From contig NZ_CP035088.1 of the NCBI RefSeq assembly GCF_004786035.1, forward strand, positions 81,001 through 145,000: 64,000 nt of DNA, written 5' to 3'. The position numbers and the translations under genes were made by a program. Origin of the DNA: Pseudomonas viciae. Lineage in GTDB: Bacteria; Pseudomonadota; Gammaproteobacteria; Pseudomonadales; Pseudomonadaceae. Every line of letters starts with the position of its first letter. The stretch's first letter is position 1. This document shows, one piece after another, positions 2,105 to 13,893 of the stretch. The notes under the pieces were generated by a model. That model saw nothing but the letters and a program-made list of their open reading frames with translations, had not been told where the DNA came from and made no database searches.

Positions 2105-2125
2105 AAGCGATTCACTCCGCCCCCG

Positions 2126-2554
2126 CTAGCCCGGCTGATTACCGATGCAATCAGGCAGGTCGGTGCCAATCGTGATCATTTCGACGGAAACTGTGGGGTG
2201 GCTGCCGAAGCCCCAAGACACAGGTCCCCCATAATTCACCAGATCGTAGATCGCGCTTTCGCCAATCAGCTGGCCGTTGCGATTATCGTACAGGCGAAAA
2301 AAGGCCGGAATCTCCCAGCGAACAAACCACTGCTGCTGCTCTGGCTCATCCGGGGGCGACTGGGGGTGAAAGAGGCCGGGCAGTAACCAAAAAGGTTTGA
2401 ATTCCTGAACTCGGTAGCAGCCGTTGGGGCTGATCCTGGCGGCGCCAACGGGCTTCGCCAGAGCCTTTTCCCACCACTGTGAAACGGCCCATAGCCCCGT
2501 GCAGAACACGATTGCAATGAGGGCTAACGTTGGGAGCCGGGTTAGTTTTTTCAT
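2126..2554 (-). CDS. Hypothetical small protein with one N-terminal membrane segment
   Basis: I do not recognise the family. From the ATG at 2554 the product is 142 residues. It begins MKKLTRL, followed by a hydrophobic stretch (about residues 6-24) that could be a signal anchor or an uncleaved signal peptide, then a hydrophilic soluble part. A longer frame runs back to 2629, but MKKL followed by a hydrophobic run is the natural start. No strong Shine-Dalgarno site is visible. It sits alone between repeat elements and is probably periplasmic or membrane-anchored. The bracketing repeats suggest recent insertion. Confidence 0.55.
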   Translation of the reverse strand: MKKLTRLPTLALIAIVFCTGLWAVSQWWEKALAKPVGAARISPNGCYRVQEFKPFWLLPGLFHPQSPPDEPEQQQWFVRWEIPAFFRLYDNRNGQLIGESAIYDLVNYGGPVSWGFGSHPTVSVEMITIGTDLPDCIGNQPG

Positions 2555-2711
2555 GTTCGCAGACCTATCGGTAACTCGCATATGAAGTTGTTCCCACTCT
2601 TGAGCCCCTGGCACTGGGCTAACGCTCAATGCGCGGTTTGACTGCCGGAATGGCAGTCACCTTACTCAAGGCAGATTTGAGACGTTGCGGGCAAGCTATT
2701 GAGGGACAGAA

Positions 2712-2762
2712 AAGGGGACACCCAATAGCCGGTATCAAGTCAAGGCTAACGGGTGTCCCCTT
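2712..2762. repeat. AAGGGGACACCC inverted repeat
   Basis: The perfect 12-base arms AAGGGGACACCC (2712-2723) and GGGTGTCCCCTT (2751-2762) enclose a 27-base loop. It resembles the other GGGGAC hairpins but has a different inner sequence. Confidence 0.75.
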
Positions 2763-2814
2763 ATTCCTTGAGACGGGTTGCATCGATAGCAGAGTAGAGG
2801 GTCGTCCAAGCACC

Positions 2815-2897
2815 TCCCTTCGTCTCGTAAAGTGGCAACCCGACTGAGCCGTGCCTATAGTCTTTGGCGCCATTTTGGCTATCGGAGGCATGGACAT
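2815..2897. repeat. Direct repeat A: copy of the upstream region of the RTX gene
   Basis: This stretch matches 9510-9590 in the same orientation with roughly ten differences by eye. It includes the words GAGCCGTGCCTATAGT and GGAGGCATGGACAT, i.e. the putative -10 and the ribosome binding site of the RTX gene. Here no gene follows; the copy breaks off into GGGGAC repeats right after the start-codon region. With direct repeat B it brackets the whole MoxR-vWA-beta-propeller operon. Confidence 0.85.
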
Positions 2898-2980: not shown

Positions 2981-2990
2981 ACCCAAAAAA

Positions 2991-3029
2991 AAATGACCGT
3001 GTTCCTTAAAAAACTGGATTGCCAGCGCT
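2991..3029 (+). pseudogene. Duplicated 3' tail of the TPR gene
   Basis: These 39 bases match 1763-1801, the last codons of the TPR gene, with three substitutions. The frame would continue past the TPR stop because TGA is replaced by CATAAAAA. The sequence that follows, CTCATAAAAATCCCACCCC, resembles 1867-1884, so the duplicated junction differs from the present TPR gene end. It is a non-functional remnant. Confidence 0.75.
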
Positions 3030-3055
3030 CATAAAAATCCCACCCCGGCGGCGCG

Positions 3056-6016
3056 TCACTGCACCGACAAAGTTCGAGTCATAGAGCGGGTTGTGTCGAC
3101 ATGCCACAGGCGGCCCTGATGGTCGAAAAGCACCCATTCATTACCCACGCAACGCAGTTGCGCATGATGCAGCGGCCAGTGCAGGACGGCGCATAACCGG
3201 TCACTGTGGCGGTGGATGAAGTGCCAGCGTGCCTCATCGTCGCCGGTTGCGTAGCAGACCACCAGCCACTGCTCAAACGAGTAGATGTACAACGGATCGG
3301 TAAACTCTTGAATCAGACCGGGCAAGGGATAGCGCTTGCTCGTGCCGCCTTCGTACGCCCTCAGCATGGGATCGCTGTCGGCTTCATGCTCGATCCAGAA
3401 CTCAGTGGTTCGGCCCGTCGCGTTATACACCTGCCAACTGTGTTCCTGACGCCGCGCGGGCATAGAGTCGCGGCTGAGCAATCGGCGGTCGGGCAGGCGG
3501 TAATGCCAGAGCTGGAAATTGTGTGGGGTTTCCAGCAATACGGATTCGTTGCACTCGTCATCCCGAAGGAAGGTAACCTGCCCGGGCAGATCGCCGACGT
3601 GCCAGAGTGTTTCGAACCGGCGATCCACGTCCACGACGCGCAATTGCGAGCCTCGGCCGACGGTCCAGGACGTGCCGTCGAAATTCTTGGCGAAGGCATC
3701 CAGCATCAGCACGCCCAGATCGCTGGCGCTGCGATTGACCAGATCCAGTTTGCAGATGCGCCAGACGTCGCCGCGACGCGCGAGCGCCAGCGCGACCTGT
3801 CGGCTGTGGCCCAGCACGATGGTCTGGGCGGGTACCGGAAAGTGAAAGGCCGTCTTGCCGCTAGCCTCTACCACCAACGCGCCAGCTTCGCCCAGTGCCA
3901 AAAGGTAGCGTCCGTCGGTCAAGGGCACGGCATCGCAGAGAGTCCGGTTGCCCCTTTCTGGCGCCGAGAACGACAAGGGGTCGCTTACCCGCTCAAGGCC
4001 CTGATTAAGAAGTTTGTTCTTGGGAAGGGCGCTGCCGGGCAAGTCCGCTTGTAGCAATTTGTCCTTGCTCATTTTTACCAGCGCTTGAAGCTGGTTCTGG
4101 GTGAGATGGGCGTGTGGCCCGGCCTGATCGCGGATCATCGCCCGCACGGTCGCGGCAGCCAGCCAGGCCAGCGCGGGACTGTGGGCCTTGTGGGCCAGCA
4201 GCGCCTGGGCCAACGTGGCGCGCTCCATAATCCGCTCGGGGTCGTTGCGCAGTTTTTCGACCCAGCTTTCGTATGTCGAGAGGGTGTCGGGTAGCAGGAT
4301 GGCCCGTTTCACCAGTGCGCCGATGGCCAGGCTCCCTCCTGCGGCCTCGGCGGCCAACAGCCATTGTGTGGCGCGTTCGTGCTCTGCCGGCAGACTCCAG
4401 ATCACGTCCACCGCCTGCAACCACAAACCTTTCTCGGTCAGAGCCAGCGCCCATTCCAGGCGCAGACGCGCGGCGGCTTCCGGCCATTTCTTTTCGAGCA
4501 AGAGGACGGCATCGGCGAACGCGTTGTCGCGCCGCGCCACTTGCAACGCTCGCTGCCAATCTCCTGCCAGGCATAGCAGGCGCACGATGGTTGAGCTGGG
4601 CACATCCCAGGCCAGCGCAAGGTCGGCCGCCTGTTGGTGGCGCTGGTGTTTTTCCAGGTAGTCGAGGGCTTCATGTCGTGCCCTCAACAGCTCGGCCAGG
4701 ACAAATACAGCTTCCTCGATACGCCCCTCGCGATCCAGTCGCTCAAAGGACTGCCGGTAGACCTGCTTGAGGTGGGTTCCAAGATCTGCCTCAAACAGCA
4801 TGCTGGTGCGAGGCCCCGATTGCTGGGTGAGCGTCAGATCCTGGCGCCTGTTGGGCGTGCCGAAGGCTTGACCTGCATCGCCCTGGCCGCCGCCCAGCGG
4901 GATGGCGTGGCGCAGTGCTTCTTCCAGGTCGCCATTTTCGAACATTTCCAACATGCGTTGCATGTAAGCGGCCTGCCGCTTTCCGTAAAGCGCTGACAGG
5001 CGTGAATTCTGGGTCAGGCGCGTCAGCCAGCGCCGCCATCTGGCCGGGCCACGTGGCTGGCCCGACGCCCGTGGCGGCACGCTCGGCTTCGATGGTCGGG
5101 CGGCATTGGCGGTAGTGGCAGTGGACGTGTTTCTTGCTGCCGAGAGTGTGCCATTGCGCCGCATCCAGGCACGCACGGCCATCAGTATCAGGGTGAAGAG
5201 TGCCGCGCCGATGACCGTCCAAACCAAGACACTGCCCAGATCGAATGTGGAAGGATCCACAGAGCGTGGCGGCTTGGCGCTCTCAGTCGCAGGGGTAGCG
5301 GTCGGCAACTGCGGACCGTCAAGGGACAGAAATCGGTAAAGGCCAATGCCCACGGCCAGCGCAATTAAACCTAGCAGGCCGTTTTTCAACTCGCCGGTAC
5401 TATGCCGGTTGTTCGCCGGGCCTGGCGTGTGACGCGCCGCAGGTACACCAGGTGTGGCGGCCTGACGCTGGCGCTCCAGCAGGGCTTGCATCACCGCCTC
5501 CCGCTCGGGGCTAACCGGCGCAAGCGAGTCACCCAGGATTTCCCGTATGTCGGTCTGTACCGCCAGCGGATCGGCTAGCGGTTCCGGCAATACGTCCTGG
5601 CAGTCGTAGGTGTCGAGCAGCGCGTACTGGCTGACGTCGATCCATTGATCGGGGGCCAGCGCAGTGGCGTCGCGCAGGTGCAGGGCATTGACCCGGGTGC
5701 CGCGTACCAGCCAGATATCGGCGTGGGCCAGGCGCTGCATTTCTTCAGGACTCAGCCGTGCTGAGCAAAGCGCTCGACCCTGGCGGATCAGCGGCCAGCC
5801 AGCGAGCCCTTCACAAAGCATGGCGCGTGCTTTGGGAAAACGCAGCAGGTCGCCGTCGGCAAAACGATAGGCCCTGGCGTCGGTTTGCCAGTGGGTGAGT
5901 ATCAACCGCGCTCGTTCCTGCTCGCTGAATCGCTCGACGGGAAGCCACAGCGCCTCGATCGGTTGATGACCGCTCAGTGCCGGACGGCGAATAATGACTG
6001 CATCAGGTCCGGACAT
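3056..6016 (-). CDS. bpX6-type membrane-anchored beta-propeller protein of a MoxR-vWA ternary system
   Basis: This 986-residue protein is the last gene of the operon. Its N-terminal part (about 1-180) resembles the bpX6 domain of MoxR-vWA-beta-propeller ternary systems. Two membrane segments follow (about 213-232 and 260-284), then a Ser/Thr/Pro/Arg linker, a helical repeat-like region (about 340-640) and a C-terminal beta-propeller-like region rich in short Trp/Asp strands. I chose the ATG at 6016 because GGAGG lies 9 bases upstream; the ATG at 6025 abuts that site. The start overlaps the end of the upstream gene. The likely role is to tether the ATPase machine to the inner membrane. The bpX6 name is family recall; the propeller is inferred. 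Confidence 0.7.
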   Translation of the reverse strand: MSGPDAVIIRRPALSGHQPIEALWLPVERFSEQERARLILTHWQTDARAYRFADGDLLRFPKARAMLCEGLAGWPLIRQGRALCSARLSPEEMQRLAHADIWLVRGTRVNALHLRDATALAPDQWIDVSQYALLDTYDCQDVLPEPLADPLAVQTDIREILGDSLAPVSPEREAVMQALLERQRQAATPGVPAARHTPGPANNRHSTGELKNGLLGLIALAVGIGLYRFLSLDGPQLPTATPATESAKPPRSVDPSTFDLGSVLVWTVIGAALFTLILMAVRAWMRRNGTLSAARNTSTATTANAARPSKPSVPPRASGQPRGPARWRRWLTRLTQNSRLSALYGKRQAAYMQRMLEMFENGDLEEALRHAIPLGGGQGDAGQAFGTPNRRQDLTLTQQSGPRTSMLFEADLGTHLKQVYRQSFERLDREGRIEEAVFVLAELLRARHEALDYLEKHQRHQQAADLALAWDVPSSTIVRLLCLAGDWQRALQVARRDNAFADAVLLLEKKWPEAAARLRLEWALALTEKGLWLQAVDVIWSLPAEHERATQWLLAAEAAGGSLAIGALVKRAILLPDTLSTYESWVEKLRNDPERIMERATLAQALLAHKAHSPALAWLAAATVRAMIRDQAGPHAHLTQNQLQALVKMSKDKLLQADLPGSALPKNKLLNQGLERVSDPLSFSAPERGNRTLCDAVPLTDGRYLLALGEAGALVVEASGKTAFHFPVPAQTIVLGHSRQVALALARRGDVWRICKLDLVNRSASDLGVLMLDAFAKNFDGTSWTVGRGSQLRVVDVDRRFETLWHVGDLPGQVTFLRDDECNESVLLETPHNFQLWHYRLPDRRLLSRDSMPARRQEHSWQVYNATGRTTEFWIEHEADSDPMLRAYEGGTSKRYPLPGLIQEFTDPLYIYSFEQWLVVCYATGDDEARWHFIHRHSDRLCAVLHWPLHHAQLRCVGNEWVLFDHQGRLWHVDTTRSMTRTLSVQ

Positions 6017-7838
6017 GGGTGTCATCCTCCGACTGCGGTTGTGCCTGATTGCACATGACCTGCAACACCCTGCGCTCGTCCCGGACCGAATACACCACCA
6101 GTTCCCGAGCCTTGGTCAGGGCGCCGATCAGTCCGCTCATCGGACAAAAGCTGATTCTGGCAATGGTCTCGTTGGTGGTGAACAGCACATGTTGCTCACC
6201 CCGGCAGTACAAGGCGACGGTCTGCTGGTTGGGGCCGAGCAAGACCATGGAAAATGCCTCGTCCTCCCCAATCAGCAATCCCAGGCCTTTCCAGCCGGGT
6301 CCCAGGTCGACCTGGCTGGTCCGAAGGTCGGGGGCCACCATCTGCCACTGCTGCTGCCCGTCGACCAGGCGCATCCACGCGCAACCGTAAAAGGTTTTGT
6401 TCCAGTGCGGACTTGCCGGGAACAGTACCTGATCGATGTCGACGTCCTTCGCCGTGCCGACCACATAGCCCGTGGACTGGCTGATCCAGGGATTGATTTG
6501 GTGGACATACAATCGACCGGCATCGTGGCGCAGATAGGCCAGCATGCTGCGATCGACCTGCGCCATGCCCACCACCTTATCGGCGATCGAGTGGGTGACA
6601 CCGGGCTGATGCGGGGTGGGCAGCTTGCCGTTGTCGACCACCCAGAAGGCCAGATGACCCTGGCCGTCGAGCAGGAAAACCCTGCCGTAGGTGCCGTTGT
6701 GCAACCACACCACAGGCAGCAGCGTGGCAGTGCCTGGGGGCAACTGCAGTTGGTCACGCTCGGGGCGGGCGACGGGTTTGAGGCCAGGCATGTTCCAAAA
6801 GACCAGTTGCTCGTCGAGGCTCAGGACCGCGCCGGGCATGCGGCCCGGGAACGTGATCGCCAGCGGCGTGCTGCGGTTGTTCCAGAGAGTCCGGCGAACA
6901 TCGAGCGGTTTTTTCTGCCGGGGAGCCGGAAGCTTGATCACCACAAGCCCAGGCTCGTCGAGCAGTTTCAGGGCGACATGGAAGCCGCTGCTGGCAATGA
7001 TCGGGGCCAGCGTCAGCGCAACCCGTGGAATGAGGGTCTTGACCGCGGTGCGAGCGATCTGTCGCGCGACGTCGAACTCGCCCTTGATCAATTGCAAGGC
7101 AAGGCGCTGGTCGGGGTTGGGCAGGGCAACTTGTCGGGTGGCCCTGTCTTGCAGCGCGACCATCAGGCTGCGGCCATCGAGGCTGTCCTGTATCTGGACC
7201 CGATGAGTGCAGGAGCGGGCGTCGGTGGCAGGCAGTCGTTGGCCGACGATCCAGCGTTCGCCGCTGTCGTAATCCTGTTCCGATAGCCAAGCGCGCCAGG
7301 TGTGCCAGTGCTCATCGCTGACGGTCTGATACGTACGGGCGTCGAGCAGTTGCTTCAAATGCACTGCGCCCTTGAACTCATGTAATTGTGGCGTGTTTTG
7401 CAGGGTCCCCCAGCGCAGCTCGGCCCCGGCTTCGCTGGCCCGGCGGGCGAGCAGGATCAGCAACGCCAGATGCACCAGTCGTGGCCCGCCCAGTTGCAGC
7501 GGGCCGGCGTCGAACAGCACAACGATCATGCGGTTGGCCTGATGAGTGCGATATTGCGGCGCCAGAAACAGGTGTTCGCCAACTGCCGCCCTGCGCAGAA
7601 ATTCGTCGGGTAGCTCATCGGCCAGCAACCACTCGCTGGTCAGCAGTCGTTCATATGGGCCACGGCGTTGCAGATCGCCAAGGCCGTCGGGTTCGGGCTC
7701 GCCGCCCTGCTGCATGCCACGCAATGGACCTAGCAGCGGATTGAGGCGTACGAACAGATCCGCCAGCAATGGCAGCTGTTCGGGGGGAAACCATTGCAGC
7801 CAGTCTCTCCAGGGTTGCAGGGATTGCGGTAATTGCAT
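6003..7838 (-). CDS. vWA-like and beta-propeller protein of a MoxR-vWA ternary system
   Basis: The product is 611 residues from the ATG at 7838, which overlaps the stop of the upstream gene as ATGA. Around residues 104-135 there is a von Willebrand A-like strand and helix (VVLFDAG...GGPRLVHLALL). The metal-site motif DxSxS is replaced by DAGPL, so metal binding may be lost. The C-terminal two thirds (from about residue 190) reads as a propeller with repeated strand pairs. MoxR ATPases commonly pair with vWA proteins to remodel or load targets. In this family the propeller protein is thought to bind the substrate; that role is inference here. Confidence 0.65.
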   Translation of the reverse strand: MQLPQSLQPWRDWLQWFPPEQLPLLADLFVRLNPLLGPLRGMQQGGEPEPDGLGDLQRRGPYERLLTSEWLLADELPDEFLRRAAVGEHLFLAPQYRTHQANRMIVVLFDAGPLQLGGPRLVHLALLILLARRASEAGAELRWGTLQNTPQLHEFKGAVHLKQLLDARTYQTVSDEHWHTWRAWLSEQDYDSGERWIVGQRLPATDARSCTHRVQIQDSLDGRSLMVALQDRATRQVALPNPDQRLALQLIKGEFDVARQIARTAVKTLIPRVALTLAPIIASSGFHVALKLLDEPGLVVIKLPAPRQKKPLDVRRTLWNNRSTPLAITFPGRMPGAVLSLDEQLVFWNMPGLKPVARPERDQLQLPPGTATLLPVVWLHNGTYGRVFLLDGQGHLAFWVVDNGKLPTPHQPGVTHSIADKVVGMAQVDRSMLAYLRHDAGRLYVHQINPWISQSTGYVVGTAKDVDIDQVLFPASPHWNKTFYGCAWMRLVDGQQQWQMVAPDLRTSQVDLGPGWKGLGLLIGEDEAFSMVLLGPNQQTVALYCRGEQHVLFTTNETIARISFCPMSGLIGALTKARELVVYSVRDERRVLQVMCNQAQPQSEDDTHVRT

Positions 7839-8284
7839 CAGCGACCTGCCCACCCATCCTGAATGCGTTGCAGATGCCGGGCCGTGACGGGCAGGCATCG
7901 GTCGAGCGGCACCACTACCCTGGGTGCATGCCACAGTAGTAGTGGCGCGCGCGCGAATCTGCCGAGCAGCGCTTGCCCCATCAGATCCAGCGGTGCGTCG
8001 GGTTCCCAACTGGTGGGCAGCCAGAGACCGGGTGCGGCGGGCTCGGTGCAGGCGTAATCAATGCCCTCGACCCATGGCAGGTCATCGACATTGCCCGTGA
8101 CGATCAGCACGTCACGGTTGGCAGTGGCTTGCAGGTGCGCGATCTGGTCTTCGGGCATGCGCTGCAGCCGTGCATGCAGGCGCGCCGCGACTTCGCCCCA
8201 GGCCACGGCGGCCTGCGGTTGGCCGGGCTCGCGCCGCACTCGCCAGTTCCAATCGATGGCCGTGGCGGTGACCATGTTCGTCAT
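7838..8284 (-). CDS. Small partner protein of the MoxR-vWA ternary system (possibly bpX5-like)
   Basis: This 148-residue soluble protein has no signal peptide and no motif I can name with certainty. By size and by its place between the MoxR and vWA genes it may be a bpX5-type component. It is coupled on both sides: its ATG overlaps the moxR stop (8281-8284) and its own TGA overlaps the next ATG (7838-7840). A second in-frame ATG at 8275 is possible. The coupling implies fixed stoichiometry with its neighbours. The function is unknown. Confidence 0.6.
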   Translation of the reverse strand: MTNMVTATAIDWNWRVRREPGQPQAAVAWGEVAARLHARLQRMPEDQIAHLQATANRDVLIVTGNVDDLPWVEGIDYACTEPAAPGLWLPTSWEPDAPLDLMGQALLGRFARAPLLLWHAPRVVVPLDRCLPVTARHLQRIQDGWAGR

Positions 8285-9402
8285 GCCTGGGTTGTCAGCA
8301 GATGGGCCACTTGTCCGCGCGCCTCATGCAGGCGCTGGGGGATGGTCTGGCTGTTGAAGTTGGCATCGATTTCGCGCAGCAGTGCTTCCAGCAGTGGGCT
8401 GGCAGGCGGTTCGCTACGCGCCAGGTAATCCTCTGCCGTTTCAAGCAGACGATGCAGGCGGGCCATTGGTTGCAGCGTCGCTTCCTCGACGGCACTGAAC
8501 AGATGGCTGTTGCTGCATTGGGCAAAAAGATCCTGCAACACCTCGCGGCCGTGTTGTTGAATTTCCCGGGTCGGCAGCACGTAAAGCAGGGGCCAGAGAT
8601 CGGCTTCGCTGGCTTCCAGATGTCCGCGCAGCAAAGCCGCCGCTGCGATCAGGCGCTGAGATTTGACGATACGTCGGTCGGAGAGCTGTATACCGGCTTC
8701 CCGCAACCGGCGGATGGCCTGGGCCAGCGCAGGCCGCATCCGTGACAAATCGACGTCCTTGAGCGCGTGGCCCAGCGTGTCGAGCTGAGTCAGCCCCAGC
8801 AGTTGCGGAACCGGGCGCTGCTCCGACTGCCAGCCGCCGGCCAGCATCGCTTCGAGCTGGTTGTCGGGTACTGCGTCCACGAACAGGTGTAGCAAAAAGC
8901 GGTCGCCGAAGGCCGCCAGCGATTCGTCGTCGGGCAGGCCGTTCGCCGCTGCGACACAGACGCGCAAGGGGCACTGGACCTGGGTGTGACCACGGCGGAA
9001 ACGTCGCTCGTTGAGCACGCCAAGCAGAGTATTGAGGATTGCCGTCGAGCCCAGGAACACTTCATCCAGGAACACAATGTCGGCTTCAGGCAGCATGCCG
9101 CTGATATCGGTCTCAACCGTGCCTTCGCGCAGCTTCTTCAGGTCGACCGTGCCAAACAGTTCCGAAGGCTCGGTGAAGCGCCCTAGCAAATACTCGAAGT
9201 AGCGACCGCCCATGGACTGCGCGACTCGACGCACCACGGCGCTTTTCGCCGTGCCGGGCGGGCCCACCACCAGAATGTGCTCCTGGGCGACCGCCGCCAG
9301 TACGATCAACTCGGCCAACTGCTCGCGACCGACCAGGCCCTCGGTGGCTGCGCGAACGGCGTGACGGATCTGACTGGCGGCGAGATCGAGCGAAGCGGAC
9401 AT
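8281..9402 (-). CDS. MoxR-family AAA+ ATPase
   Basis: This 373-residue cytoplasmic AAA+ ATPase is the first gene of the operon. Walker A GPPGTAKS is at 47-54, Walker B IVFLDE at 109-114, and a sensor-like AAAN follows. MoxR ATPases act as chaperone-like remodelers together with vWA partners. The frame opens further upstream, but the start at 9402 is supported by AAGGAAG 7 bases before the ATG, and the upstream extension is translated intergenic sequence. It is divergent from the RTX gene across 186 bases. Expected cofactor: ATP/Mg. The ATPase class is certain; the target is unknown. Confidence 0.9.
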   Translation of the reverse strand: MSASLDLAASQIRHAVRAATEGLVGREQLAELIVLAAVAQEHILVVGPPGTAKSAVVRRVAQSMGGRYFEYLLGRFTEPSELFGTVDLKKLREGTVETDISGMLPEADIVFLDEVFLGSTAILNTLLGVLNERRFRRGHTQVQCPLRVCVAAANGLPDDESLAAFGDRFLLHLFVDAVPDNQLEAMLAGGWQSEQRPVPQLLGLTQLDTLGHALKDVDLSRMRPALAQAIRRLREAGIQLSDRRIVKSQRLIAAAALLRGHLEASEADLWPLLYVLPTREIQQHGREVLQDLFAQCSNSHLFSAVEEATLQPMARLHRLLETAEDYLARSEPPASPLLEALLREIDANFNSQTIPQRLHEARGQVAHLLTTQA

Positions 9403-9509: not shown

Positions 9510-9590
9510 TCCCTTCGTTTCGTAAATGGCAACCTGACCGAGCCGTGCCTATAGTTTTTGGCGCCACATCGCTATTGGAGGCATGGACAT
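9510..9590. repeat. Direct repeat B / shared upstream region of moxR and the RTX gene
   Basis: This is the partner of 2815-2897. It lies in the 186-base divergent region between moxR and the RTX gene and ends in the RTX gene's ribosome binding site (GGAGG at 9577-9581). TATAGT at 9551-9556 could be a -10 box; no convincing -35 box is seen. It therefore probably carries expression signals, and its twin carries the same signals with no gene behind them. Confidence 0.75.
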
Positions 9591-11577
9591 GAGCCAGAGC
9601 ATTTCGCCCGCCGCTTCAGCTGCGCGGAACACAGGCATGGTCGCCACGACCTTATGGGGCTCGGACAAAATCGCAGGTATCACGGTCGATCCAGACGGTG
9701 CGATCTGGCTTGGCGCTTATAGTCGCCTGGGGCTAGGAGGCGAAGAGGATTCAGGCTTCACCGGCAGCCTGGTCCGGTTCAATGCCAACGGTAGCCTGGA
9801 CCGCGACTTCAGCGGCGACGGTAAATCCCTGCTCCCTGTGTCGCTCGATATCGAGGACGGCGGTAATGCCGCCGTGCAGCCGGGCGGGGGCTACCTGGTG
9901 GCGCGCTACGTGAAAGTAGGCGACGCCTGGGTGTCGGGCGTCAGTCGTAATTTGGCGGACGGCAGCCTCGATACGAGTTTCGGGAACGGCGGCACCGTGA
10001 CAGTGCCTTTCTATTGGAATGAAGATCTAGGCCAGCAAGCGTCGTTCTCCGTGCAACGCGACGGCAGCTTCTTCGCAAGCGCTGGGTATCCCTCTGGAGA
10101 GATCTACATCGCCCGCTTCGACGCGACGGGGGCCTTGGTTTCGTCTTTCGCAGAGGCCGGGGTCCTGCACCTGCCAGCATCTGTCGGCATTCATCCCGGC
10201 GGCACGATCGACGTTTCGCTGCAAGGAGACGGGAAGGTATTGATCACGGGGCAAGATACCCTGACCCGCCTCAACCCGGACGGTACGCTGGATAGCAGCT
10301 TTGCGAACGGGGGCAGCCTGGCCTTGGATGTCCATGCAGACGCCCTCGTCATCCAGAACGACGGCAAAATCCTGCTGGCGGGCGCCACGGGCGGCGTGGC
10401 GACCGTCATCCGACTCAATGCCGACGGCTCACTCGACAGCGATTTCGGTGATCAGGGGCGGGTAAGTTGGGGCTCGGAAAGCGCTCCTTTCGCAGTCGCC
10501 GACATGATCGTGCTGGCCGACGGCAGACTATTGATTGGTGGAAGCCAAGGTACGAGCGCGGACGGCTACCTGGCCGCCTTGGTCCAGTTGAACCCCGACG
10601 GCAGCCTGGACCACAGCTTTGGCAATCCCGACGACGGCTATTACCACCTCGACGGTGGCCGCGACGATGACTTCTTGCTCGGGACCGCCTCGTTCGACGA
10701 TGCGATCTTTGGCGGGGCCGGTAACGATCTGCTCGATGGCCAGCAAGGTCGCGACTTGCTGACGGGCGGTGTCGGCGCCGATACGTTCCGTTACCAGTCA
10801 GTCACCGACAGTTACCGAACCGCAACCGCGGCCCATAGCGACCGAATCACTGACTTCGACCCCGGCACCGATACGATCGACCTCGCCTCCCTGGGCTTCC
10901 TCGGGCTGGGCAATGGACATGACGGAACGCTGGCGATACGCGTCAATGAAAGCGGGACGCGGACCTACCTCAAGAGTTTCGATACCAACGCGGACGGGGA
11001 ACGTTTCGAAGTGGTCTTCGACGGTAACTTGGGCCAAGCGCTGAATGAAACCAACATTCTGTTTCAGCAAGCCAGGTTGGTGGGCACAGAAGGGGACGAT
11101 CGTTTACAAGGCAACGCTCGAGGCGAAATCATCGAAGGGGGCGCGGGCGATGATCGCCTTTATGGCGCGCTAGGGAATGATGTGTTGGTTGGCGGAGAGG
11201 GCCGGGACCTATTGGTGGGTGGTGGTAACAACGATGTGTTCCGCTTCGACGGACTGAGCGACAGCTACCGTACCGCCACCGAAAACCACACTGATCGCCT
11301 GATGGACTATACCGCGGGTGAAGACACGATCGACTTGTCTGCCTTGGGCTTTACCCGGCTGGGGGATGGTTATGGCGGCACGTTGGATGTGGTGGTCAAT
11401 GAAGCCAAGAACCTGACTTACTTGAAGAGCTACGAAGTCGATGCGTCCGGGGCTCGATTTGAGTTGAGCTTGGTGGGGGACCACTCCGGTTACCGTGATT
11501 TGAACATCATCTTTGCCGAGCCCTCGGAAGGGGAGGCCATTCAATTAGTTGGAGTGGCTAATGACGTCTGGGTGTAA
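9589..11577 (+). CDS. Delta-60 repeat / RTX calcium-binding protein, probably type I secreted
   Basis: The product is 662 residues without a signal peptide. The first half has repeated units of the delta-60 type (LNPDGSLDxSFGNxG pattern, several copies between about 60 and 350), expected to fold as a propeller. The second half has two RTX nonapeptide blocks (GGAGNDLLDG near 380, GGAGDDRLYG near 520). Each is followed by a closely related module of about 100 residues (DSYRTAT..DTIDL..LGF). RTX repeats bind calcium and mark substrates of type I exporters; no exporter is nearby. The start at 9589 was chosen because GGAGG is 7 bases upstream; ATG at 9583 is too close. Substrate and activity are unknown. 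Confidence 0.85.
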   Translation: MSQSISPAASAARNTGMVATTLWGSDKIAGITVDPDGAIWLGAYSRLGLGGEEDSGFTGSLVRFNANGSLDRDFSGDGKSLLPVSLDIEDGGNAAVQPGGGYLVARYVKVGDAWVSGVSRNLADGSLDTSFGNGGTVTVPFYWNEDLGQQASFSVQRDGSFFASAGYPSGEIYIARFDATGALVSSFAEAGVLHLPASVGIHPGGTIDVSLQGDGKVLITGQDTLTRLNPDGTLDSSFANGGSLALDVHADALVIQNDGKILLAGATGGVATVIRLNADGSLDSDFGDQGRVSWGSESAPFAVADMIVLADGRLLIGGSQGTSADGYLAALVQLNPDGSLDHSFGNPDDGYYHLDGGRDDDFLLGTASFDDAIFGGAGNDLLDGQQGRDLLTGGVGADTFRYQSVTDSYRTATAAHSDRITDFDPGTDTIDLASLGFLGLGNGHDGTLAIRVNESGTRTYLKSFDTNADGERFEVVFDGNLGQALNETNILFQQARLVGTEGDDRLQGNARGEIIEGGAGDDRLYGALGNDVLVGGEGRDLLVGGGNNDVFRFDGLSDSYRTATENHTDRLMDYTAGEDTIDLSALGFTRLGDGYGGTLDVVVNEAKNLTYLKSYEVDASGARFELSLVGDHSGYRDLNIIFAEPSEGEAIQLVGVANDVWV

Positions 11578-11623
11578 AACGCAGACCGGGTTATTCCTTG
11601 TCTTGGGCCGCATCCCTTTACTC

Positions 11624-13172: not shown

Positions 13173-13233
13173 TGCAGTACAATTTGAGTTTACTGGAAAA
13201 CCCAAAACGGGTTTGGAAGTTTGGAGGCATGTT

Positions 13234-13893
13234 TTGGCAAAGAATAAACTCGGAGAGTCGCAAGTTATAGACTTTTTCTCTTCGGTATTGAGGGATCAGC
13301 TGGTCAATAAATTTGGAAGCCATTCGGAATATTTCATTGGGAATTTTTCTGGCAGTCAAGATCGTAAGTATGCAGATTTTTTTGCTGGAACTAATTCCTC
13401 GTGCGTACTTATTGAGTTTAAAGAGTTTGAACGCGAGATTCGGGATGAATACAGGAAGCCTCTCCGAGAAAAGCTATGTAAAAATCTAACGAGTAAAACG
13501 GCAGCATTATCCAGAACTACCCATTTTATTGCCTATAGAGTTTCGAGTATATGTATGGATATAAAGCTATCACCATATGTAGATGTGGTTTGCCCGAAGT
13601 GGTCAATTGGAAGCCCTCCTCTTGAGGCTATAAGCTCTAAAGCACATTATGACTTTATTGATGACTTTCTCTCAGCAAAAGAAGGTGTGGCTATTGATAA
13701 ATTTTTAAAGTACGCAGGGCATCTTAACTCTACCGCTGGAGGTATTGCAGATGGGGCCAGTGCCCCCTTCAAATCAGTACTTTATAGTCGTAATACTCAA
13801 GGTAGAGTTGTAGGTACCATCTTTAATTCACTGGGCGAACTACGAAAACTAATAGATAAGGCACCGAAGATTACACAATCCTGGGAGCCGTAG
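13234..13893 (+). CDS. AT-rich orphan gene, putative PD-(D/E)XK nuclease-like protein
   Basis: From the TTG at 13234, with GGAGG 6 bases upstream, the product is 219 residues. The open frame also includes a TTG at 13213, but that one precedes the ribosome site. Residues 43-66 read QDRKYADFF then VLIEFKEFE, giving D48...E61-x-K63 in a strand context, the core of PD-(D/E)XK nucleases; the motif is short, so this is tentative. The gene is clearly more AT-rich than its surroundings and uses codons such as TTA, ATA and AGA, which suggests horizontal transfer. No methylase or partner gene is adjacent. A defence or mobile-element role is possible. Confidence 0.6.
   Translation: MAKNKLGESQVIDFFSSVLRDQLVNKFGSHSEYFIGNFSGSQDRKYADFFAGTNSSCVLIEFKEFEREIRDEYRKPLREKLCKNLTSKTAALSRTTHFIAYRVSSICMDIKLSPYVDVVCPKWSIGSPPLEAISSKAHYDFIDDFLSAKEGVAIDKFLKYAGHLNSTAGGIADGASAPFKSVLYSRNTQGRVVGTIFNSLGELRKLIDKAPKITQSWEP

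Follow-up and report, generated by a model that had tools for sequence, protein, structure and literature searches.

The beta-propeller MoxR-vWA ternary system was described as subsystem 4 by Kaur et al. 2020 (PMC7159879). In that account, the system is known from Pseudomonas and Xanthomonas and comprises a MoxR ATPase with a GXXXTAKS P-loop, a divergent von Willebrand factor A (vWA) domain joined to a beta-propeller, and a third component that carries an N-terminal domain, a membrane segment, helical repeats and a propeller; no conventional effector is present. The same text records that some vWA domains of the class lack one or both aspartates of the metal ion-dependent adhesion site (MIDAS), and that additional linked genes occur in ‘a subset’; it suggests that the N-terminal region of the third component is highly variable and effector-like. 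An operon of this kind lies in the window considered here, a stretch of 64,000 nucleotides (nt) from Pseudomonas viciae (contig NZ_CP035088.1, positions 81,001 to 145,000), whose host genome measures 6.70 Mb in two contigs. A related arrangement, ravA-bpX5-(6ND4)-bpX6, appears in a region of genome plasticity of P. syringae clade 2b-a (PMC9677677); the label 6ND4 fits, because 6nd4 chains are among the structural matches of the propellers. No experiment on the beta-propeller type was found in the open literature, most subscription papers lying outside the search. A first-pass annotation of the window had noted little experimental work on the class.

The operon occupies positions 3056-9402 on the minus strand and consists of four genes in the order MoxR ATPase, bpX5, vWA-like/beta-propeller protein and bpX6 (Table 1). 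MoxR and bpX5 meet in an ATGA junction, bpX5 and the vWA gene overlap by 1 nt, and the vWA gene and bpX6 overlap by 14 or 23 nt, depending on which of two ATG starts is chosen for bpX6. All four frames and the ATPase motifs are intact, and searches with the vWA protein and bpX6 retrieved one copy of each from the host genome. Three of the four proteins are named by Pfam as parts of ‘MoxR-vWA-beta-propeller ternary systems’ (bpMoxR, bpX5, bpX6), with scores of 299 bits for MoxR and 215.7 bits for bpX6 against a cut-off of 27 in each case, while the vWA/propeller protein is without a Pfam match. Other MoxR proteins also exceed the bpMoxR cut-off, but in 57 related genomes they reach at most 76 bits, under five matches of at least 207 bits. 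The operon is a member of the already described beta-propeller MoxR-vWA ternary system, bpX5/bpX6 subtype; since it belongs to the system of Kaur et al. and carries the Pfam names, its kind is not new. The first-pass annotation had proposed a complete MoxR, vWA-like/propeller and bpX6 operon with a membrane hairpin, a description borne out by Pfam, by AlphaFold2 models and by the hydrophobic segments of bpX6. It had also seen no obvious effector, and scans of the operon proteins with Pfam, NCBIfam and PADLOC likewise brought up no effector-type domain.

The locus departs from the account of subsystem 4 in several respects. Four genes, bpX5 included, are found wherever the contig is complete; the propeller of the vWA protein is modelled with 26 strands in six or seven blades, as opposed to about four; and the N-terminal domain of bpX6 is well conserved within the subtype. 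As this domain is not especially variable there, the variability argument of Kaur et al. applies between subtypes, if at all. What is added here to the described system is the fixed four-gene unit, the lack of a conserved fifth gene, the insertion at an empty site, the finding that the divergent RTX neighbour is not a partner, the DxGPxQxG motif and a split between constant and variable parts.

Other MoxR-vWA systems offer further comparison. For RavA and ViaA, the inner membrane is the place of action (PMC9489729). Like them, the operon combines a MoxR ATPase with a partner, here a predicted vWA-like one, and RavA is the closest NCBIfam relative of its MoxR (E=1e-49); unlike them, it does not reach the RavA equivalog threshold (170 bits against a cut-off of 681). 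Propellers and bpX5/bpX6 are not known as parts of RavA-ViaA. The vWA domain of NorD, as modelled, plugs the ring of NorQ; it binds the client through its MIDAS, which is required for that client and dispensable for the ring (PMC9976466). NorQ-NorD and CbbQ-CbbO share with this locus a MoxR ring, presumed here, and a partner in which an N-terminal domain is combined with a vWA domain, predicted here; in contrast to them, the vWA-like domain stands here in the middle of the protein, appears to lack a canonical MIDAS and carries a propeller, and no conserved client gene is linked. The VMAP, iSTAND and FtsH MoxR-vWA ternary systems follow the same general grammar of MoxR, vWA and third component, but their third component differs, and their peptidase, TIR, Ubl or other recognisable modules were not found here.

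Among 398 genomes of the genus, 29 exceed the threshold for bpX6, that of the window included, and the other 369 are without it. The 28 other same-genus operons all hold MoxR, bpX5, vWA/propeller and bpX6 genes in the same order on one strand, and 28 of the 29 loci show a 4-nt overlap of MoxR and bpX5; frames are broken, shortened or changed in three of the 28 (L068, from a genome 86% complete, L094, and the bpX5 of L077). A pattern-based scan for bpX6 in 84,980 species genomes yielded 73 named loci, chiefly from Pseudomonas, Variovorax, Xanthomonas, Lysobacter and Massilia. All four genes stand in order at 70 of them, the remaining three being cut by contig ends. The counts of 28 and 73 are not independent, because bpX6 is identical between 20 of the 28 operons and a locus among the 73. 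In a class sample of 369 genomes, four pass the cut-offs of both bpX5 and bpX6, and none passes that of bpX5 alone; three of the four lie outside the genus, two with the full order and one with the genes split across contigs. A further genome (G776) has a sub-threshold bpX5 match and no significant bpX6. In a phylum sample bpX6 occurs in 3 of 349 genomes. Given this constant order and co-occurrence, the ‘ternary’ system is a four-gene unit in the bpX6 subtype, a definition that tells experimenters what to clone. No fifth gene is conserved among the 102 loci (29 and 73, with 20 loci counted twice): the largest neighbour cluster, an ABC-transporter-like family at varying distance, covers 18 of them, and the second, a gene directly next to bpX6 within a single group of Pseudomonas, covers 14. 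The genes are thus kept together and propellers appear in the models of both large proteins, so that neither of the contrary outcomes named by the first-pass annotation occurred.

The ATPase motifs GPPGTAKS and FLDE are present in all 29 same-genus MoxR proteins, and among 70 MoxR proteins of the named loci the Walker A motif reads GPPGTAKS in 68 and GPPGTGKS in two. A distinct MoxR-vWA pair was met at L096 (genome G039, contig C17, 11049-14447), with a bpMoxR score of 207 bits and a vWA protein that has a MIDAS-like motif, DTSAS.

The vWA-like/beta-propeller protein has its closest named relatives in Pseudomonas fluorescens, P. brassicacearum and P. kilonensis. Both motifs of its helical N-terminus are present in 69 of 69 homologues over 550 amino acids (aa) and absent from one extra duplicate copy in L165. 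The domain that follows is modelled as strand 104-109, helix 118-136, strand 140-145, helices 158-166 and 175-187 and strand 192-199, and ends with three strands between 212 and 240. This alpha/beta order suits a divergent vWA domain, an assignment that comes entirely from the predicted secondary-structure order because no sequence profile detects the domain. The three final strands could, at a guess, equal the ‘finger’ proposed for NorD. D110 is invariant after the first strand, and FDxGPxQxG stands at the end of that strand in 67 of the 69 homologues from named genomes, L142 and L168 deviating at G or P. DxSxS is found in one of the 69 (L142, reading DASPS), and 3 of 39 members have Asp at residue 200, our own choice of the strand-4 position. 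The usual metal motif is therefore not conserved and another motif is; to judge from these alignments, the canonical MIDAS (DxSxS after strand 1 and Asp after strand 4) is replaced by DxGPxQxG.

Profile searches brought no confirmation of the vWA domain. Pfam gave weak and mostly unrelated matches for 72 close and 39 distant members of the vWA protein family, the best propeller ones at E 0.0036 and 0.015. Against PDB sequences, the close alignment had no match at E<=10, and the distant one had seven matches at E 0.38-2.7, mostly propeller proteins and none named vWA; bpX6 had one irrelevant match (E 0.97). A comparison with CoxE proteins by hhalign was uninformative: the six CoxE frames included two incorrect ones (L189, L192), and the control, in which CoxE was set against an evident vWA protein, failed too. 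Comparisons by hhalign of bpX5 with the vWA protein and with the N-terminal domain and propeller of bpX6, and of the two propellers with each other, gave no support for homology, with a probability below 2 in nine of nine cases; this null is weak evidence of absence, because hhalign later failed a positive control. Structures were compared with VIA-align, which probes mainly propellers, and the bpX5 fold, the bpX6 N-terminal domain and the solenoid are for this reason called unmatched rather than novel. In the bpX6 N-terminal model, the block values of the predicted local distance difference test are 80-95 across residues 11-130 and low thereafter. Two hydrophobic segments are present in 57 of 67 bpX6 homologues. 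The bpX5 proteins of L077 and L100 diverge after about residue 104 from that of the close relative L076, as a frame change would produce.

Variation is distributed very unevenly over the four proteins. Mean column entropy in the same-genus alignments is 0.45 bits for MoxR (29 loci), 1.09 for bpX5, 1.27 for the vWA protein and 1.33 for bpX6 (27 loci, without L068 and L094). In the wider alignments, the vWA protein rises from 0.80 bits in the N-terminal helices to 1.40 in the vWA domain and 1.87 in the propeller; bpX5 stands at 1.41, and bpX6 at 1.41 in the N-terminal core, 2.5-2.9 in the linkers and membrane region, 1.17 in the solenoid (residues 329-662) and 1.87 in the propeller. Ratios of nonsynonymous to synonymous substitution rates (dN/dS, omega) were taken from 12 chosen pairs, two of them uninformative (L084/L106 and L085/L129, the same genome twice). 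MoxR has values of 0.03-0.09 across seven close Pseudomonas pairs and of 0.06-0.35 across the three remaining ones; the N-terminal helices of the vWA protein have 0-0.06 in six of nine informative pairs, all six being close Pseudomonas pairs, and 0.29-0.37 in the other three. Within the seven close pairs, omega lies between 0.12 and 0.23 for the vWA propeller; in bpX6 it is 0-0.22 for the propeller and 0-0.20 for the N-terminal domain. Propeller values climb to 0.61 outside them. An arms-race signature was not seen, as no omega exceeded 1 in the chosen pairs. In Massilia frigida (L163, 5440-9026) the vWA gene is duplicated in tandem inside the operon, and identity between the two falls from 80% in the N-terminal helices to 55% in the vWA domain and 38% in the propeller. 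Among closely related operons, MoxR and the vWA protein's helical N-terminus are almost invariant, and propellers and linkers vary. A constant end together with a changing propeller end fits target choice by the propeller, although relaxed constraint would look similar. Together with the loss of the MIDAS, this split indicates where to mutate first. Synonymous divergence between L072 and L076 is 0.97-1.18 in the vWA gene and 0.26-0.34 in the bpX6 solenoid and propeller, which suggests recombination within the operon.

The operon is inserted at a site that is empty in relatives. At L182, which is without it, a small gene matching window 2126-2560 is followed directly by the gene for a delta-60-repeat/RTX protein, the divergent neighbour of MoxR in the window. 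Window 2109-2897 and 9510-11604 both align at this site and share 79 bases; the insertion-point sequence is therefore present twice in the window and once in L182. To the left, the tetratricopeptide repeat (TPR) gene whose 3' end is duplicated adjoins trkA. The flank duplications suggest the import of a block that brought copies of the flanking sequences with it. With intact frames and ATPase motifs, a culturable genus and close relatives that have the empty site, the operon makes a convenient test case. The small gene itself (2126-2560, minus strand), between the TPR gene and the RTX start, encodes a protein of unknown family with a hydrophobic N-terminus and without Pfam or PADLOC matches.

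Tentatively, and with slightly less than even confidence, we favour an inner-membrane-tethered MoxR ring that remodels a propeller-selected target and works as a constant four-protein unit. Gene content, order and overlaps, the ATPase motifs, the hydrophobic segments of bpX6, purifying selection and the empty-site insertion form its direct basis, together with the two modelled propellers. MoxR would form a hexameric ring, by analogy with its relatives, on which the helical N-terminus and vWA-like domain may dock as NorD and CbbO do on theirs. bpX6 would anchor the assembly at the inner membrane by a two-helix hairpin, with the large domains in the cytoplasm, and bpX5 probably serves as the adaptor that links MoxR/vWA with bpX6. 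The fast-evolving propellers might pick the target in place of the lost metal-binding MIDAS site, and ATP hydrolysis would then remodel or extract a membrane-proximal protein. The earlier suggestion of a machine that ‘remodels or senses a target’ stands as a fair inference. We think that the function is an accessory one, gained and lost as a cassette, with stress or conflict more likely than housekeeping.

Several observations weigh against the remodelling ring. Omega lies below 0.7 throughout, save for bpX5 in L076/L077 (0.96), where the L077 frame is altered after about residue 104, and fast propeller evolution may be only weaker constraint. In three pairs of greater distance (L139/L141, L147/L150 and L121/L124), constraint on the N-terminal helices (0.29-0.37) barely exceeds that on the vWA propeller (0.29-0.41). 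The tandem vWA duplicate inside the operon of M. mucilaginosa (L165, 5009-8958) shows similar identity in the vWA domain (41%) and the propeller (40%), and one copy is without the helical motif. A single hydrophobic segment is present in 10 of the 67 bpX6 homologues, and the model is of low confidence across membrane segments and linkers. Propellers and vWA strand order alike come from predictions; no profile finds the vWA domain, nor did Pfam match one in the 72 close or 39 distant members.

It is possible, if somewhat unlikely, that the operon is a phage-defence (biological conflict) system, in which sensing of the invader would fall to the propellers and MoxR would be the switch that sets off bpX6, its N-terminal domain and hairpin acting as the membrane effector. 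The patchy spread through the genus, the insertion at a variable site and the place of bpX5/bpX6 in the plasticity region of P. syringae agree with such a role, which Kaur et al. propose for the whole class. However, PADLOC 2.0.0 matched none of bpX5, the vWA/propeller protein and bpX6, and MoxR at best as a generic AAA protein (E=1.6e-4); bpX6 matched none of 72,556 plasmid records and none of 50,697 phage records; and the bpX6 N-terminal domain, the supposed effector, is less variable than the propeller and not hypervariable within the subtype. The surroundings speak in the same direction: among 109 neighbour open reading frames (ORFs; of 145 selected, 38 loci), called mechanically and some surely antisense, no PADLOC model recurred at E<=1e-5, in a comparison made without a matched control, and 11 models matched one ORF each at that threshold. 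Pfam found in these 109 mostly ordinary genes, among the 25 of 92 families listed, with LysR regulators at the top (5/109).

A chaperone that matures or maintains some complex of the inner membrane, comparable to RavA-ViaA or NorQ-NorD and devoid of any conflict role, seems rather improbable. The kinship of MoxR with RavA, the action of RavA-ViaA at the inner membrane and the strong purifying selection on MoxR would suit it, but the RavA score falls far below the model cut-off, the operon is missing from 369 of the 398 genus genomes, no constant partner gene flanks it, and the DxSxS of the MIDAS, the motif that NorD needs for its client, is confined to one homologue.

More doubtful is a conflict system in the form of a propeller-addressed membrane MoxR remodeller, in which the vWA domain would have exchanged the metal-dependent binding of a client for a new conserved site, DxGPxQxG, used internally, and the two propellers would read the target; with the ATPase itself as effector, such a system would need no separate toxin or nuclease.

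The proposal that the operon serves as chaperone or secretion aid for the RTX protein, which the first-pass annotation had held to be the nearest candidate target, is very improbable and already contradicted: the two are divergent neighbours (starts 9402 and 9583), a 45% RTX-like stretch lies about 1.5 kb from MoxR in L113 (one of the 73 named loci) and a 50% relative lies about 10 kb from the operon in G101, but 14 of the 398 genomes carry an RTX orthologue of at least 86% identity, and two of these also have bpX6, that of the window and one in which the two genes are on different contigs. At the looser E<=1e-60 an RTX relative is found in 38 genomes, three of them with bpX6. All seven RTX loci that were retrieved (of 13 other orthologue loci) are without the operon beside the gene, RTX is missing from the sequence retrieved around each of the 28 other same-genus operons, and in the window the operon sits between two copies of the RTX start. 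The RTX protein was rejected as a partner on this sparse co-occurrence and on the operon-free RTX loci.

Table 1. Operon features and flanking elements, with positions in the window
Feature	Position	Strand	Basis
MoxR AAA+ ATPase (bpMoxR), 373 aa	8281..9402	-	PF20030 E=1.4e-89, AAA_5 E=2.4e-24; start chosen by homologue length
Walker A GPPGTAKS, the GXXXTAKS P-loop named by Kaur et al. for the class	9241..9264	-	motif reading
bpX5 protein, 148 aa	7838..8284	-	PF19921 E=6.7e-52; 112 homologues
vWA-like/beta-propeller protein, 611 aa	6003..7838	-	AlphaFold2 model, homologues; no Pfam match
N-terminal helical region, residues 1-102, conserved RGxYxxLLxSE and DEFxRRA	7533..7838	-	lowest entropy in the protein
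Predicted vWA-like alpha/beta domain, residues 103-262	7053..7532	-	strand/helix order in model
DxGPxQxG at end of first vWA strand, place expected for DxSxS of the MIDAS	7488..7511	-	homologue alignment
Predicted C-terminal beta-propeller of vWA protein, residues ~270-605	6024..7031	-	AlphaFold2 model
bpX6 protein, 989 aa (986 aa from ATG at 6016)	3056..6025	-	PF19922 E=4.8e-64 at residues 12-181
bpX6 N-terminal domain, residues 12-181	5483..5992	-	Pfam; alpha/beta in model
bpX6 hydrophobic segment 1, residues 217-235	5321..5377	-	Kyte-Doolittle mean 2.02
bpX6 hydrophobic segment 2, residues 266-284	5174..5230	-	Kyte-Doolittle mean 2.55
Predicted bpX6 helical solenoid, residues 415-661	4043..4783	-	model, 16 helices
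Predicted bpX6 C-terminal beta-propeller, residues 684-987	3065..3976	-	model
Left copy of insertion-site sequence (second copy of RTX gene start)	2830..2897		91-95% identical to 9524-9590, two repeat families
Right copy of insertion-site sequence	9524..9590		repeat comparison and relatives
Partial copy of TPR gene 3' end at left edge of operon	2982..3034		87% identical to original 1754-1806
Delta-60-repeat/RTX protein, 664 aa	9583-11577	+	neighbour divergent from MoxR

Further to the right, window 13213-13893 on the plus strand encodes a 226-aa protein with no Pfam match over the cut-off. It contains a D...IEFK stretch, which we take to resemble PD-(D/E)XK nucleases.

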